This document shows positions 1 through 6,916 of a stretch of DNA of 64,000 nucleotides, in pieces. The stretch spans positions 1,426,001 through 1,490,000 of the forward strand of contig NC_014011.1 of NCBI RefSeq assembly GCF_000025885.1, read 5' to 3'. The translations under genes were made by a program, and so were the position numbers. The notes below the pieces were generated by a model that was not told where the DNA came from, ran no database searches, and saw only the letters and a list, made by a program, of their open reading frames with translations. How positions within the stretch are numbered: position 1 is the first letter of the stretch; every line of letters starts with the position of its first letter. The DNA comes from Aminobacterium colombiense DSM 12261 (lineage in GTDB: Bacteria; Synergistota; Synergistia; Synergistales; Aminobacteriaceae).

Positions 1-372
1 CGCTTCATCGGCTTCATCACGAATTTCCTGCTCAAATACATGGTAGACTGGGAGTCCCAACGGAACTCCTGCCAAGGGACCTGCAAATGTAGGATCGCCG
101 TTCGTTACGGTCTCTGCATAAATTTCTGCGCCTTCCGCATCGGAAGAACCAAGAATGACCACAACGTTTTCAGCGCCATACTTTTCAGCAGCATCTTTAA
201 CACGCTGCTGGTTCTGCAGATCCATGGCTCCTGCAGCCGTTCAGACGAAACACTCGGTTACTGAGAAGATAACCTCAGCGCCGCTGTTTTTGAAGCATGC
301 TTCCATGGCAGGTCCCGGCACGCCATCGCGCTCACCGAGAAAAAGCACTTTTTTTCCAGCCAATTTGCCCAT
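1..372 (-). CDS. grdA: Glycine/sarcosine/betaine reductase component A, selenoprotein (5' part)
   Basis: GrdA is the small selenoprotein A of glycine reductase. It accepts the carboxymethyl group from protein B as a selenoether and passes it on, with protein C finally giving acetyl phosphate; thioredoxin re-reduces it. The frame opens [20 protein letters not shown] and meets a TGA at codon 44 (bases 243-241), preceded by ECFV and followed by [11 protein letters not shown], the family's selenocysteine site; the frame then stays open to the window edge, so TGA is read as Sec. 124 codons are present of about 155-160 expected; the C-terminus lies outside. An AGGAGG ribosome site sits 8-9 bases before the ATG. 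It is the last visible gene of the riboswitch-grdX-trxA-grdE unit. An ordinary gene caller would split it at the TGA. Confidence 0.95.
214..243 (-). promoter_or_regulatory. Candidate bacterial SECIS element at the grdA UGA codon
   Basis: Directly after the UGA (243-241) the hexamer CTGCAG occurs at 236-231 and again at 219-214, separated by 11 bases. As CTGCAG is its own reverse complement, the two copies can form a 6 bp stem starting 4 bases after the UGA. A stem-loop close behind the UGA is what SelB needs in bacteria. The position is seen in the sequence; the function is inferred, and the true fold may use other bases. Confidence 0.5.
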
Positions 373-421: not shown

Positions 422-1708
422 TTAGATTGTGTAGGCCCCAAGCTTTGTATAGCCAAGCTCGCTTGTTGCGCCAAGAATTGCCTGCAGCTCAACAGTGATC
501 GTGCCATCTTCAGCAAGAGAACCCTGCCAGCCGCCGGCAATGACATTTGCTTCTTCAGGGAAGCCAATGACTTTCTCCATGGGAGGAAGTACTATTACCT
601 CATTGGCGTTACCAGCAGTAACACAGGCATCCCCCTCTTTGCAGGAATCGGCAAGAGACTGGCTTGCTCCATCCTGTCCGGCATATTCGTCTGTAAGAAG
701 AGTGGTCTTGATGCCCGCCCGCTCAGCTTTCCAGCAGTTCATAACAAGGTCTGCATCCGGATTACCAAAACCTTCTTCGGAAATGAGAAGACCATCTACG
801 CCAAGGGTTCTGGCAAGCTTGACTGCGTAGGAAGAGCTTCTCTTTTTATCGCCAAGAGTAACGTTCTCGTTGGTAATGATACAGCCAATGAAATTGAAGT
901 CTTTTCCGTGCCGATCAAACATAGCCCTGATAATCGGATTGTTCATGTGAACATAGGAGTTGTTCTTATCACAGGCGGAAACGCAGTTTCCCGAAACGAT
1001 AGCTCCATCAAAGACCTCTGTAGGATTGATAAGTGTCGGGAGAATCTTTTTAGCGTCGACACCATAAACATAGGTGTCGTGAAGAAGTCCCTGGGACTGG
1101 AGCATGTAAAGGTAAGCCACTTTTGGAAGCTCCGGGTATGCATTCATAGCCTTATCTAAGGACGGAAGCTCAAAAGCCTCCACTTCATCAGCCTTAACCT
1201 CTGTACAACTCTGGGCGAGATAGACAGCTGCCTTAAGGCCGGCCATGCGGCATGCGGCTTCGTGATCATGCTTCTCAAGACCTTCTACAGGAGTAAGGAC
1301 AAGCACAACGTTGTTGGTCTTGGAATATGGCGTGTACTCTGCGCCAGGGCCCATCATATCAATGATGCCTTCCTGGAAACGGACGATCTGCCCGGTTGTC
1401 ACAACGGCAGCACCTTTCAGAACGAGGGTTTTGCCTTCGCCAACGGTGTCTACATCGCCGACAAATCCGGGGAAAACTTCATTGGAACCCTCAAGTTTGC
1501 ATCGGGGCTCGATAACATCCTTCACTGGAAGAATGCGGACGCTCTCGCCAGGCATGGCAAGATCGACATCCACCTTAACAAGGCGTTCGTCATCAGAAAG
1601 CTTGGCTAAAAGCTCTTCTTTATTGACATAAAGAACGCCGTCTTTAACAGTCGTCTTGTCACCCCACGCAAGTTTATTGACTTTTACGTTATGGAGTTCT
1701 AATTTCAA
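422..1708 (-). CDS. grdE: Glycine reductase component B, pro-protein of the alpha/beta subunits
   Basis: GrdE belongs to the substrate-specific protein B of glycine reductase, which activates glycine through a pyruvoyl carbonyl that forms a Schiff base. The 428-residue protein is full length. It carries the self-cleavage site: Asn241-Cys242 in the stretch IVSGNCVSACDKN. In the known family the chain is cut before this Cys, which becomes the N-terminal pyruvoyl group of the beta subunit, so one gene yields two peptides. The start is a TTG codon (1708-1706) with a GGGGGAG ribosome site just upstream, giving MKLELHNVKV. It lies 27 bases behind trxA and 49 bases ahead of grdA. The selenoprotein partner GrdB is not in the window and is probably further downstream. 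Confidence 0.96.
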   Translation of the reverse strand: MKLELHNVKVNKLAWGDKTTVKDGVLYVNKEELLAKLSDDERLVKVDVDLAMPGESVRILPVKDVIEPRCKLEGSNEVFPGFVGDVDTVGEGKTLVLKGAAVVTTGQIVRFQEGIIDMMGPGAEYTPYSKTNNVVLVLTPVEGLEKHDHEAACRMAGLKAAVYLAQSCTEVKADEVEAFELPSLDKAMNAYPELPKVAYLYMLQSQGLLHDTYVYGVDAKKILPTLINPTEVFDGAIVSGNCVSACDKNNSYVHMNNPIIRAMFDRHGKDFNFIGCIITNENVTLGDKKRSSSYAVKLARTLGVDGLLISEEGFGNPDADLVMNCWKAERAGIKTTLLTDEYAGQDGASQSLADSCKEGDACVTAGNANEVIVLPPMEKVIGFPEEANVIAGGWQGSLAEDGTITVELQAILGATSELGYTKLGAYTI

Positions 1709-1735: not shown

Positions 1736-2059
1736 TTACAGCAGTTTCTCTACGTTTTCTTTGATTTTTTCAAGAGTAACCTCAGCACCACTGATACGTG
1801 CAACCTCCTCTCCATTTTTCCAGAAAAGGAATGTGGGCAACCCCATCACCCTGCAATTGATGGCTACACGGCGATTCTGAGAAACATCGACGGAACAGAA
1901 CTTAACTTTTCCTTCAAACTCTTCTGCCATCTTGTGGACATTGGGAAGAAGAGCCATACAGGGTCCGCATTTAGGGCCCCAGAAGTCAACCAGCACAGGA
2001 AGGCTGCTCCCCTTCACTTCTGCATCAAAGTTATCTTTCGTCAACTCTACCATTGCCAT
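1736..2059 (-). CDS. trxA: Thioredoxin of the glycine reductase operon
   Basis: A 107-residue thioredoxin that should deliver electrons to selenoprotein A during glycine reduction. The fold is full length. The redox motif is Cys31-Gly-Pro-Cys34, but the residue before it, nearly always Trp in thioredoxins, is Lys here (FWGPKCGPC). The cis-proline region VMGLPTFLFWKNGE is present. The start ATG follows an AGGAGGTGA ribosome site at good spacing. It lies between grdX and grdE, the usual place of a dedicated Trx in grd operons. No thioredoxin reductase gene is seen here, so electrons must come from a trxB elsewhere or outside the window. Confidence 0.93.
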   Translation of the reverse strand: MAMVELTKDNFDAEVKGSSLPVLVDFWGPKCGPCMALLPNVHKMAEEFEGKVKFCSVDVSQNRRVAINCRVMGLPTFLFWKNGEEVARISGAEVTLEKIKENVEKLL

Positions 2060-2132: not shown

Positions 2133-2540
2133 CTATTCATGAGCAGAGAGAAACATTGAATATTTTTCCAGGCTTTCTTTTATGAGTTCCTTATCAAGAA
2201 ATGAATAATCATCTATCATTTCATCTGTGAGAGACGAAACTAGAAGTATCCTCTCTTTACAGGAATCATATATGGAAATGGCATTTTCAATAAGTTCAAG
2301 AGAATAAGTATCGACGTTTCTGGGCAATGCCCCAGACGGAACCTGTAATAGGATGGAGCGAAATGGATGCTGGTAGGGACGCAAATTCCCATAAAGAGGG
2401 TGTGTTAAAAGAGACCAACCCTTGTGGATGTAATTGCGGACACAAACAAGAACGTCGAAAGACGTTCCCTCTACTAATTCGACATTTTTTACTCTTTTGC
2501 AAAGAGTTCTATTATTTGTAACGAGGAGCATGCGACCCAT
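2133..2540 (-). CDS. grdX: GrdX family protein
   Basis: GrdX is the small protein typically encoded first in glycine and betaine reductase operons; its molecular role is not known. The 135-residue product starts MGRMLLVTNNRTLCKRV and holds the family-like stretch VLVCVRNYIHKGWSLLTHPLYGNL. The start at 2540 is chosen because an AGGAGG site lies 7 bases ahead; the frame runs open 22 codons further upstream into the leader, but that part is not conserved-looking. No membrane segment or signal peptide is visible. It is the first gene after the glycine riboswitch, and its ribosome site is partly covered by a short hairpin. Confidence 0.88.
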   Translation of the reverse strand: MGRMLLVTNNRTLCKRVKNVELVEGTSFDVLVCVRNYIHKGWSLLTHPLYGNLRPYQHPFRSILLQVPSGALPRNVDTYSLELIENAISIYDSCKERILLVSSLTDEMIDDYSFLDKELIKESLEKYSMFLSAHE

Positions 2541-2550
2541 CGTTCTGCCT

Positions 2551-2569
2551 CCTATATTACTACTATAGG
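2551..2569 (-). promoter_or_regulatory. Hairpin overlapping the grdX ribosome binding site
   Basis: On the minus strand CCTATA, seven loop bases and TATAGG form a 6 bp stem. The closing GG is the start of the AGGAGG ribosome site of grdX. Such a stem can hide the site from the ribosome, a plausible output structure for the riboswitch just upstream. The pairing is seen; its use as a switch is inferred. Confidence 0.5.
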
Positions 2570-2639
2570 TTAGACAATCTCTGTCGCATAGCCCCAAAGC
2601 GAACAACGTCTACAAGAAGGGCGGCTAACTATTCCAGAG

Positions 2640-2765
2640 ACCCGTCCAGCCACAATCCTTCTGCCTGAGAGTTTCCGTTTTCAGGCTCCCAAACCTGAAA
2701 ACATTGCCCCTTCGGCGCCCCTCTACTTAATGTAAAAAAGGACTCTCTTGCGGCCTTCCTCCGGT
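2640..2765 (-). ncRNA. Glycine riboswitch (gcvT-type aptamer)
   Basis: The leader of grdX holds the hallmark core of the glycine aptamer in the right order on the minus strand: GAGAGTCC (near 2748-2741), GCGCCGAAGGGGCAA (near 2718-2704), a strong P3b-like hairpin (GTTTTCAGG with CCTGAAAAC), then AACTCTCAGGCAGAAGGA (near 2675-2658). One aptamer is clear. Downstream bases to about 2575 are structured (TCTCTG can pair with CAGAGA near the gene) but lack a second recognisable core, so this looks like a singlet, perhaps with a degenerate helper helix. It should sense glycine and control the glycine reductase operon; turning expression on with glycine is the logical direction. Confidence 0.93.
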
Positions 2766-2776
2766 AATCCGTAATG

Positions 2777-2804
2777 ATTCTACACTATATGGCATGATAG
2801 TCAA
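2777..2804 (-). promoter_or_regulatory. Sigma-70-type promoter of the grd operon
   Basis: On the minus strand TTGACT (2804-2799), 16 bases, TAGAAT (2782-2777). Transcription would begin near 2770, immediately before the riboswitch aptamer. Confidence 0.7.
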
Positions 2805-2853: not shown

Positions 2854-2879
2854 TGCGGGGAGGGTTAACCCTCCCCGCA
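2854..2879 (-). terminator. Perfect hairpin behind the NSS symporter gene
   Basis: An 11 bp perfect inverted repeat (TGCGGGGAGGG with a TTAA loop) lies 41 bases behind the stop of the minus-strand symporter gene. The downstream T-run is short (ATTTTG), so termination may be partial. It separates the symporter from the grd promoter, which reads in the same direction. Confidence 0.75.
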
Positions 2880-4564: not shown

Positions 4565-4591
4565 TATACACTGAAAGGAGTGATTGGCAAG

Positions 4592-4834
4592 ATGTGTCTC
4601 GCAGTTCCCCACACTATTGAAAGAATTTTAGACCATAATACCGTTTTAGCTACTGCCGGTTCTGTACAGGTAGAAGTTCGCGTTGACTTGATAGACTCTG
4701 CTGATATTGGCGATACAGTGCTTGTTCATGCCGGATTTGCCATCGAAAAACTTGAAGAAAATGACTCTATAGAATTACAGGCCCTCTGGAATGAAATACA
4801 TCTCTACTCAGAAAAAAGCCATGTCACCCTTTGA
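4592..4834 (+). CDS. hypC: Hydrogenase maturation chaperone HypC
   Basis: HypC carries the Fe(CN)2CO unit between HypD and the large subunit of [NiFe] hydrogenase. The 80-residue product begins MCLAVP; removal of Met leaves the essential N-terminal Cys, which fixes the start at 4592 although the frame also opens with GTG at 4580. AAGGAG lies 11 bases upstream. The OB-fold-type beta sequence QVEVRVDLIDSADIGDTVLVHAGFAI matches the family. The 3' end overlaps hypD by 14 bases, so the two are translated together. Confidence 0.94.
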   Translation: MCLAVPHTIERILDHNTVLATAGSVQVEVRVDLIDSADIGDTVLVHAGFAIEKLEENDSIELQALWNEIHLYSEKSHVTL

Positions 4835-5969
4835 TAGGGAGCCCGGCCAGATCAAAGCTTCTTATACGGCGCACCATGTAATAGAAGCCATCGGCCAGCG
4901 TCTCACAAAACCACTGACTTTTATGGAGGTTTGCGGCACTCATACCGTTTCTATTTTTCGCTCTGGCATTCGCTCTGTTCTTCCTCCAGACCTTTCTCTG
5001 ATCTCTGGACCGGGATGCCCTGTTTGCGTAACAGATCAGGGGGAAATAGATTGTGCCATAAACCTTCTCGACATGCCTGATATTACTATGGCAACATATG
5101 GGGACATGCTTCGCGTACCGGGAACACGAGGCTCTCTTTCGGAACGGAAAAGCGAGGGAAAAGATGTCAGGCTTATAACAAGTGCTGCCCAGGCTTTATC
5201 AATTGCCGAGGACAATCCAGAGCGCGAGATCGTCTTTCTGGCCGTCGGTTTTGAAACGACAGCTCCTGCCACTGCCGCAACCATACTAGAAGCTGCAGAA
5301 AAGAATATCACAAACTTTTCAATCCTTGTCTATCATAAACAGACGCCGCCAGTACTTGAGCAACTGGTCAAAGACCCTGATCTAAAGATTAACGGTTTTA
5401 TACTGCCTGGCCATGTAAGTGTTATTTTAGGTCACAAAGCCTATCGCTTTCTAGCCGATCACTATGGCGTCCCCTGTGCCATTGCAGGTTTTGAACCAAT
5501 GGATATTCTTTTAGCCATAGCGGATCTGGTCTTTCAGCATTCAAATGGAGAGTCGGCCCTCCATTCTCTCTACCCCAGAGCAGTGAGACCAGAAGGAAAC
5601 CAGAAAGCCCTGGATTTAATTTCAAAAGTTTTCACTCCTTGTTCCGCTCGATGGCGGGGATTAGGGCTCATTCCATCTTCCGGATACGCCCTGAAAGAAG
5701 AGTTTGCAGCCTTTGATGCCCTTCTTCGCTTTGGAATAACCATTCCCACTCCTAAACCGCCTGCAGGCTGTTGTTGTGGGGATGTGTTGGCTGGACACAT
5801 AACCCCCTTGAAATGTCCTCTTTTTGCTGCTGCATGTACCCCCATGACACCTGTGGGCCCATGTATGGTTTCAAGTGAAGGATCATGTTCGGCCTATTAT
5901 AAATATAATAGAGGAGGTGCATCCCCCTGGAAAAGGTCACCCTCGGCCACGGAAGCGGCGGACGACTAA
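4821..5969 (+). CDS. hypD: Hydrogenase maturation protein HypD
   Basis: HypD is the iron-sulfur scaffold on which the Fe(CN)2CO centre of [NiFe] hydrogenases is assembled with HypC and HypE. The sequence shows the thiol motifs MEVCGTHT and GPGCPVCVT, YGDMLRVPG, GFETTAP, and the C-terminal cluster ligands (AGCCCGDVLAG, LKCPLF, VGPCMVSSEGSC). With the start at 4821 (MSPFD) it has 382 residues, slightly above the usual 360-375 because of a Ser/Ala-rich tail that overlaps the 5' end of hypE by 43 bases. An upstream ATG at 4791 would add ten residues with no family match. Confidence 0.95.
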   Translation: MSPFDREPGQIKASYTAHHVIEAIGQRLTKPLTFMEVCGTHTVSIFRSGIRSVLPPDLSLISGPGCPVCVTDQGEIDCAINLLDMPDITMATYGDMLRVPGTRGSLSERKSEGKDVRLITSAAQALSIAEDNPEREIVFLAVGFETTAPATAATILEAAEKNITNFSILVYHKQTPPVLEQLVKDPDLKINGFILPGHVSVILGHKAYRFLADHYGVPCAIAGFEPMDILLAIADLVFQHSNGESALHSLYPRAVRPEGNQKALDLISKVFTPCSARWRGLGLIPSSGYALKEEFAAFDALLRFGITIPTPKPPAGCCCGDVLAGHITPLKCPLFAAACTPMTPVGPCMVSSEGSCSAYYKYNRGGASPWKRSPSATEAADD

Positions 5970-6916
5970 CACAAAATCTAATACAGACCATTCTTTCAGT
6001 TTTCCCTGAGCAGAATCTTACATCAAACCTGGAGGATTGTGCTCTCATCTGGGGGAAAATTGGCGTCACAATTGACAGCTTTACAGTTTCTCCCAGGGAT
6101 TTCCCTGGCGGTGATATTGGGGAACTAGCGATTTGCGGAAGTGCCAATGATTTGGCGGTACGAGGGGTGCTTCCTCGTTTTATAGCCATGAGCGTAGTCG
6201 CAGAGGAAGGACTTCACATGGCTGAGCTCTCGCGGTATATGAAGAGCGCCGCTCGCATTTGCGAAGATCTTAACATTCAGCTGGTTGCCGGTGATACAAA
6301 AGTTGTTCCTAAAGGGCATGTGGAAGGTCTTTTCATTACCACCTGCGCTGTGGGGGAACAGATTACGGAAGAATCCTTGGGAATGGACCGCTTGCAGCCG
6401 GGAGATAAGATTATTGCAAGCACATCCATAGGACGACATGGAGCGGCCATAGGCGCCAGTCGGTTCAATCTCAATCCAGAAAACCTGAAAAGCGACTGCG
6501 CCCCTCTCTGGCCAGCTTTAAAGCCCTTATTAGCCCTGAAAGGGTTGCGGTGCATGCGGGATTGTACCCGAGGCGGATTAGGAACTGTTATGTGCGAGTG
6601 GGCAGAAGGGCGCAATATAGGAATCACCCTGGTGGAAAAACAGATTCCTATAAGGATAGCCGTACAATCAATTTGTGATATTCTAGGCTTCGACCCTCTC
6701 TACCTTGCCTGCGAAGGATGCGCTGCCATTGCGGTAGCTCCTGATGACGCTGACAGGGCCTTGGGGCTTTTGCGAGAAAGCTCTCTCTGCGAGGAAGCCG
6801 CTGTTATTGGAACTGTGACAGAAGATCACGCAGGGATGGTGGCCCTTCAAACGGAAATAGGCGGAATGAGGGTTGTGGATATGCCTGTTGGTGAAATGCT
6901 GCCGCGCATTTGCTAA
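5927..6916 (+). CDS. hypE: Hydrogenase maturation protein HypE, apparent CTG start
   Basis: HypE dehydrates the carbamoylated C-terminal cysteine to a thiocyanate, the cyanide donor for the [NiFe] iron centre. The C-terminal PRIC is present, as are the N-terminal HGSGG, the ATP-binding region GDTKVVPKG and the DCTRGGLGT stretch. The first in-frame ATG (6152) would lose 75 residues including HGSGG. Upstream, a stop (TAG ending at 5910) closes the frame and the only workable start is CTG at 5927, with AGGAGG 8 bases ahead, giving MEKVTLGHGSGG, just like HypE N-termini. No ATG, GTG or TTG lies before the conserved part. Length 329 residues is normal. It overlaps the hypD end by 43 bases. Confidence 0.9.
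   Translation: MEKVTLGHGSGGRLTQNLIQTILSVFPEQNLTSNLEDCALIWGKIGVTIDSFTVSPRDFPGGDIGELAICGSANDLAVRGVLPRFIAMSVVAEEGLHMAELSRYMKSAARICEDLNIQLVAGDTKVVPKGHVEGLFITTCAVGEQITEESLGMDRLQPGDKIIASTSIGRHGAAIGASRFNLNPENLKSDCAPLWPALKPLLALKGLRCMRDCTRGGLGTVMCEWAEGRNIGITLVEKQIPIRIAVQSICDILGFDPLYLACEGCAAIAVAPDDADRALGLLRESSLCEEAAVIGTVTEDHAGMVALQTEIGGMRVVDMPVGEMLPRIC

Follow-up and report, generated by a model that had tools for sequence, protein, structure and literature searches.

The window analysed here is a 64,000-nucleotide stretch of the Aminobacterium colombiense DSM 12261 genome (contig NC_014011.1, positions 1,426,001 to 1,490,000); strain ALA-1T of this species ferments serine, glycine and threonine (PMC3035294). 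At one edge of the window we found a glycine-reductase operon preceded by a long leader, and the features of both are collected in Table 1. GrdX, thioredoxin, a GrdE/GrdG-family protein and a selenocysteine-containing GrdA were identified, the last with an in-frame UGA (Sec) at about 243-241 in the peptide CFVUTA. Beyond the window, grdA is followed by grdB, grdC and grdD, named by eye from their open frames, and then by an AGCS amino-acid carrier gene (L062:2120-3622; TIGR00835, 453.6 bits). Because the carrier gene trails the grd genes on the same strand, glycine ON control might also reach a glycine/alanine importer. On the other side, a hairpin ends the upstream transporter gene and so sets it apart from the grdX leader. 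The leader opens with a promoter-like site, whose -10-like hexamer is also found in relatives. Elsewhere in the window, at 4580-6916 on the plus strand, open frames resemble by eye the hydrogenase maturation genes hypC, hypD and hypE.

Table 1. Features of the grdX leader and the glycine-reductase operon, in window coordinates
Feature	Coordinates	Strand	Details
Terminator-like hairpin of upstream sodium-dependent transporter gene	2854..2879	-	
Promoter-like site	2804..2777	-	TTGACT-16-TAGAAT; 10/12 consensus matches
5' side of leader-linker P0 stem/kink-turn	2760..2764	-	CCG pairs with CGG 2644-2642; GA/GA next to P1
Glycine aptamer RF00504	2760..2643	-	full length (model 1-94); 62.4 bits, E=1.5e-10
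Aptamer P1	2755-2748 / 2655-2648	-	GGCCGCAA / UUGUGGCU
3' ghost aptamer	2576..2642	-	stem GGUCUCUG (2642-2635) / CAGAGAUU (2583-2576), plus inner stem
Proposed switching strand	2583..2595	-	GGGGCUAUGCGAC; ghost inner-stem arm, junction and first base of ghost P1 3' strand
SD-sequestering hairpin	2545..2577	-	UUGUCU-aa-CCUAUA / UAUAGG-AGGCAG; includes SD AGGAGG; nested inside start helix
Start-region partner	2525..2536	-	GUCGCAUGCUCC; from grdX codon 2; proposed OFF-state pairing with 2595-2583
grdX, operon gene 1	2133..2540	-	ATG at 2540; NF038093, 124 bits
trxA (thioredoxin)	1736..2059	-	
grdE, glycine reductase component B alpha	422..1708	-	TTG start; GrdE/GrdG family
grdA, selenoprotein A, 5' part	1..372	-	runs off window edge

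The RF00504 covariance match in the leader, for which the gathering score is 32 bits, lies between the promoter-like site and the four operon genes and is the sole one in the 1,980,592-bp genome. The same scan found no second glycine aptamer in the leader, which is therefore not a tandem. The initial annotation had read the region as a glycine riboswitch with a single-core aptamer, standing in the order promoter, aptamer and hairpin before grdX-trxA-grdE-grdA and controlling glycine reductase. The covariance score, the single match in leader and genome, the order of the elements on the minus strand and the identity of the downstream genes bore out each of these points. Judged by covariance, the leader carries a glycine riboswitch aptamer, and glycine binding is predicted.

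Downstream of the aptamer lies a second structured part. The two-part model RF03166 (glycine-GGAnGA), which has the same architecture (P0, aptamer 1 and a ghost-like second P1), aligned to 2764..2577, including the leader-linker P0 and a CUCUG/CAGAG ghost stem, with 79 bits (E=6e-17); as the curated cut-off is 110 bits, the A. colombiense leader is not counted as a member. P0 reads CCG-GAG-GA / GA-CGG in this alignment, and CCGGAUGA..GGACGG is conserved in relatives, covariation not being counted. The pattern CUCUG(G)A ... GACAGAG recurs 3' of the aptamer in nearly all Synergistota grdX leaders. The second half, which had been called structured but degenerate, is thus indeed structured, but the CUCUG/CAGAG stem and the RF03166 alignment identify it as a ghost aptamer rather than as a degenerate region.

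Type-1 singlet glycine riboswitches with a 3' ghost aptamer were reportedly described by Ruff et al. in 2016. The A. colombiense leader has one aptamer that is binding-competent by sequence, a 3' ghost stem and a P0 kink-turn, and because a single aptamer with a 3' ghost is the published form of a type-1 singlet (Crum et al. 2019, PMC6944388), we class it as one. It resembles the published examples in its single aptamer, in the ghost P1 stem 3' of it and in its ON-type (catabolic) context; 93% of those examples precede gcv genes, and grd is unmentioned in the main text of that study (PMC6944388). Among grdX leaders, weak second RF00504 matches (36.8-39.9 bits) occurred only in three genomes (G012, G015 and G016), and recognisable pieces of a second aptamer are kept, by eye, in G009-G014, G019-G022, G113 and G153-G155. 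Weak or partial second aptamers of this sort are what tandem decay would look like.

Comparison of leaders across the phylum showed that this genomic context is shared. A glycine riboswitch was found in 114 of 167 Synergistota genomes, and in at least 99 of these 114 it lies directly before grdX. At 97 of the 121 riboswitch loci read, grdX was the first gene, and two more (G099, G101) were added from coordinates. The other loci lie mostly before gcvT-like genes, with a lipoate-protein ligase gene at three and AGCS transporters at two (families tested for representatives). The three ligase loci (L019, with TIGR00545, L072 and L109) have a less usual target, and there the ligase gene may head a gcv operon. 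Genomes with two or three grdX genes (G028, G029 and G106-G108) have one riboswitch each; the paralogous copies examined lie beside sarcosine-reductase-like subunit genes and have no riboswitch. RF00504 was absent from the grdX leaders of G126, G063, G075 and G104 even on permissive rescan, and the leader of G081, at a contig end, gave only a cut-off RF03166 match and no RF00504. Outside Synergistota, where grd loci were located by a GrdE alignment scan of genome contigs, RF00504 was found upstream in 31 of the 34 loci tested, and the riboswitch-bearing loci belong to Desulfovibrionaceae and other deltaproteobacteria, Bacillota and Cloacimonadota.

A glycine riboswitch has been described at the grd operon of C. 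difficile (PMC11477304, PMC10880999), which is reported to be glycine-induced (PMC11477304), and there too the aptamer stands directly before grdX and the glycine-reductase operon (PMC11477304, PMC10880999). The initial annotation had considered control of Stickland-type glycine use through grdX to be less often described. This view has to be corrected, as the C. difficile case is published and, far from being rare, the grd context is the usual one in Synergistota. For its dominance in this phylum we found no published description in the literature searched.

The strand at the 3' side of the ghost aptamer (…GCUAUGCGACAGAGA…) shows complementarity to the beginning of grdX: the A. colombiense segment AUGCGAC (2589-2583) can pair with GUCGCAU (2536-2530, codons 2-4), extended by GGGGC/GCUCC. 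The MFE structure of 2597-2510 is this start helix around the SD hairpin UUGUCUaaCCUAUA/UAUAGGAGGCAG (-28.7 kcal/mol, z=-3.3), and in the ligand-free state this helix comes out about 3 kcal/mol more stable than the ghost stem, in energies that disregard tertiary contacts and co-transcriptional folding. The start helix shares one base with ghost P1 in A. colombiense; the conflict is mostly with the ghost inner stem. Since plain whole-leader MFE folding was unreliable across families, comparative tests were used.

In a duplex-energy scan, a 13-nt window was moved along whole leaders and paired with the leader's own start region or with the start regions of other groups. Across 22 groups, from which the Fretibacterium-like genera were left out, a single sharp peak appeared where the ghost 3' strand was paired with the start region (matched -13.2 versus mismatched -9.3 kcal/mol, t=-7.0). 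Neither the rest of the leader nor two control targets inside grdX gave a similar signal. When partners were permuted between families, 0 of 300 permutations were as good, with or without the Fretibacterium-like genera. Near relatives carry compensatory changes from G-C to A-U and U-A at one pair of the start helix. In distant families the sequence and the register around the start codon vary together with the pairing retained, and groups with differing N-termini and differing ghost sequences still match; the helix of the G115 family, for example, is AACGAGGACGAA / UUUGUCCUCGUU. Furthermore, synonymous recoding weakened the pairing in 14 of 14 genomes (three Aminobacterium and eleven from g2-g8) as well as in the two f7 genomes (p 0.003-0.048). 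Results for f6 and some of f8, where the wrong ACAG motif had been taken in several leaders, are not part of this count.

These controls bear on the idea that coding constraint, namely a conserved Arg near the GrdX N-terminus, together with G+C content, gave rise to the complementarity as a by-product, the leader working otherwise or being constitutively structured. GrdX N-termini do partly share (S/M)-C-R, and A. colombiense alone reaches only p=0.043 in the synonymous test. Opposed to this are the synonymous-codon and partner-permutation controls, the limitation of the signal to one strand and one target, and the matches in groups with different N-termini and ghost sequences, and we regard such a by-product as very improbable.

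The start pairing extends beyond Synergistota, as the Desulfovibrio leaders L173 and L174 have it in the form GCGCGAC / GUCGCGC (by eye). Within the same family as Aminobacterium, the ghost-strand/start complementarity is absent from the Fretibacterium-like genera, which, from their leader sequences, must use some other mechanism. Their leaders (G040-G092; for example L084, L088, L123) carry GGAC 5' of the ghost stem and GUCC/GUUC immediately upstream of the SD, which could form an alternative closure of a longer ghost stem.

The initial annotation had placed the output of the switch in an SD-blocking hairpin (CCTATA/TATAGG). This hairpin exists: its arms CCUAUA (2569-2564) and UAUAGG (2556-2551) overlap the AGGAGG SD (2553-2548), which sits 7 nt upstream of the grdX ATG, and they bury it in the MFE structure. 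An analogous CCUAUUC/GAAUAGG hairpin is found in family f10. That the hairpin alone is the output, opened on formation of the ghost stem while the start helix is incidental, is nevertheless unlikely. The CCUAUA/UAUAGG form is confined to genera around Aminobacterium and shows no covariation in the one alignment tested (A3), whereas the start helix is conserved and covaries; in addition, the hairpin overlaps the ghost stem by just two bases, so that coupling it to the ligand would be hard. A switch made of this hairpin only was demoted for want of covariation. The claimed hairpin thus holds as a structure but not as a conserved switching element, and that role would fall to the covarying pairing between the ghost stem's 3' strand and the grdX start, part of which lies outside the stretch that the initial annotation covered. 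A translational output for the singlet switch, as suggested there, is likely on the strength of this pairing, but probably not through the local SD hairpin by itself.

We also examined how the ghost stem affects access to the ribosome site. In 87 leaders, the predicted cost of opening this site fell by a mean of 4.9 kcal/mol once the ghost stem was enforced, and the accessibility gain relative to shuffled downstream sequence had a mean z of 2.65 (31 leaders). In A. colombiense the SD hairpin still mostly forms under this constraint (SD unpaired 0.28 versus 0.16), and the gain of only 2.3 kcal/mol is not above shuffles (z=0.2), so that support for the model in the window comes mainly from relatives (G028 and G029, z 2.2-2.4). 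It is homology, more than the energetics of A. colombiense alone, that makes the start helix a probable lock on the start.

Bacillota grd leaders offer a different output for the same part of the RNA. At 15 Bacillota grd loci, the counterpart of the CAGAG strand serves as the 5' arm of an intrinsic terminator (for example ACAGAGUAGAAGG...CCUUCUAUUCUGUUUUUU), and these account for 15 of the 31 non-Synergistota grd leaders. Such leaders, related to that of C. difficile, which is itself not among them, have an intrinsic terminator and often a second aptamer, whereas A. colombiense has a ghost in place of aptamer 2 and no terminator. Release of the strand would there mean OFF and its capture ON. 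Together with the glycine-induced grd operon of C. difficile (PMC11477304), the terminator on the homologous strand suggests that the ON polarity is a shared logic.

A transcriptional switch of this kind in A. colombiense, with termination of the intrinsic or Rho-dependent type within the leader or early grdX as in Bacillota grd/gcvT leaders, appears improbable to us. By the intrinsic-terminator criterion there is no terminator-like site from the promoter to the ATG, and the sole candidate, which lies within grdX at 2469-2448, does not rise above chance (2 found versus 0.7 expected in that region). The strand that builds the terminator in Bacillota is here directed at the surroundings of the start codon, in a leader with no terminator, which argues for the translational reading. 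Family f3, whose first codons carry a U-run downstream of the start helix, leaves some room for termination, and the terminator heuristic flags 10 of 96 Synergistota leaders, most of which appear to be a start helix plus U-rich codons. The f3 loci L082, L090 and L093 have this U-run in grdX codons 3-4 (AUGUCCUUUUUUUAU); there, the helix and U-run could double as terminator and start lock.

Together, these comparisons make it probable that the leader is a type-1 singlet riboswitch that responds to abundant glycine by turning ON grdX translation, and hence the glycine-reductase operon, through an exchange of the ghost strand with the start region. Without glycine, the ghost strand GGGGCUAUGCGAC would pair with the grdX start GUCGCAUGCUCC, and the start helix would enclose the SD hairpin so that ribosomes could not load. 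With glycine bound, the aptamer would dock on and stabilise the ghost aptamer, and the CUCUG/CAGAG stem would claim the strand and free the start region. We infer the binding of glycine, the ON polarity and the translational output from sequence comparison. The switch class and the control of grd were already known; the probable novelty is an output through the ghost strand and the coding-region start.

There is precedent for this kind of mechanism. The tandem riboswitch of N. gonorrhoeae gcvT is a translational ON switch, as supported by mutants in 2026, and in its OFF state nucleotides of aptamer 2 pair with the translation initiation region (PMC13104608). That system has a glycine-binding aptamer 2, a gcvT target and a partner just upstream of the start codon (PMC13104608), whereas A. 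colombiense has a ghost aptamer and a proposed partner inside the first grdX codons. In the light of the N. gonorrhoeae mutants, the version with a ghost and a coding-region partner would be a variant. It differs from the published type-1 singlets (PMC6944388) in that the ghost 3' strand itself is predicted to be the switching strand. On balance, we lean towards a view in which the ghost aptamer is more than a scaffold and the 3' strand of its P1 is the moving part, held in the OFF state by the opening codons of the regulated gene. In this view, evolution in a single operon setting led from the Bacillota arrangement of tandem aptamer and terminator, by way of the degenerate second aptamers of Synergistota families f3-f5, to a ghost with a start lock (Aminobacterium and relatives, some Desulfovibrio).

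The first gene of the operon deserves a separate remark. In several genera an in-frame UGA occurs early in the grdX reading frame, at one of two alternative positions, as NNxxLU at codon 15 or as xLU at codons 20-22. It was seen in the Synergistota loci L003, L004, L007, L008, L023, L024, L026, L063, L098, L116, L118 and L127 and in the Desulfobacterota loci L180, L184 and L186; twelve other grdX genes, that of A. colombiense among them, have Cys at the first position. A short-looped stem-loop lies 3' of the UGA. This pattern points to GrdX as a selenoprotein, so far undescribed, in the UGA-bearing lineages, where Sec in GrdX possibly gives the operon a selenium check. In the literature searched, no paper was found that names GrdX as a selenoprotein.

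The proposed exchange would give a concrete answer to the question of how a ghost-bearing singlet controls translation, with one strand swapped between the ghost stem and the coding start. The grd leaders also provide a natural series, of tandem, degenerate tandem and ghost and of terminator versus start lock, for the question of why tandems decay to singlets. Across this phylum of amino-acid fermenters, glycine reductase, and not glycine cleavage, is the main target of the glycine riboswitch.
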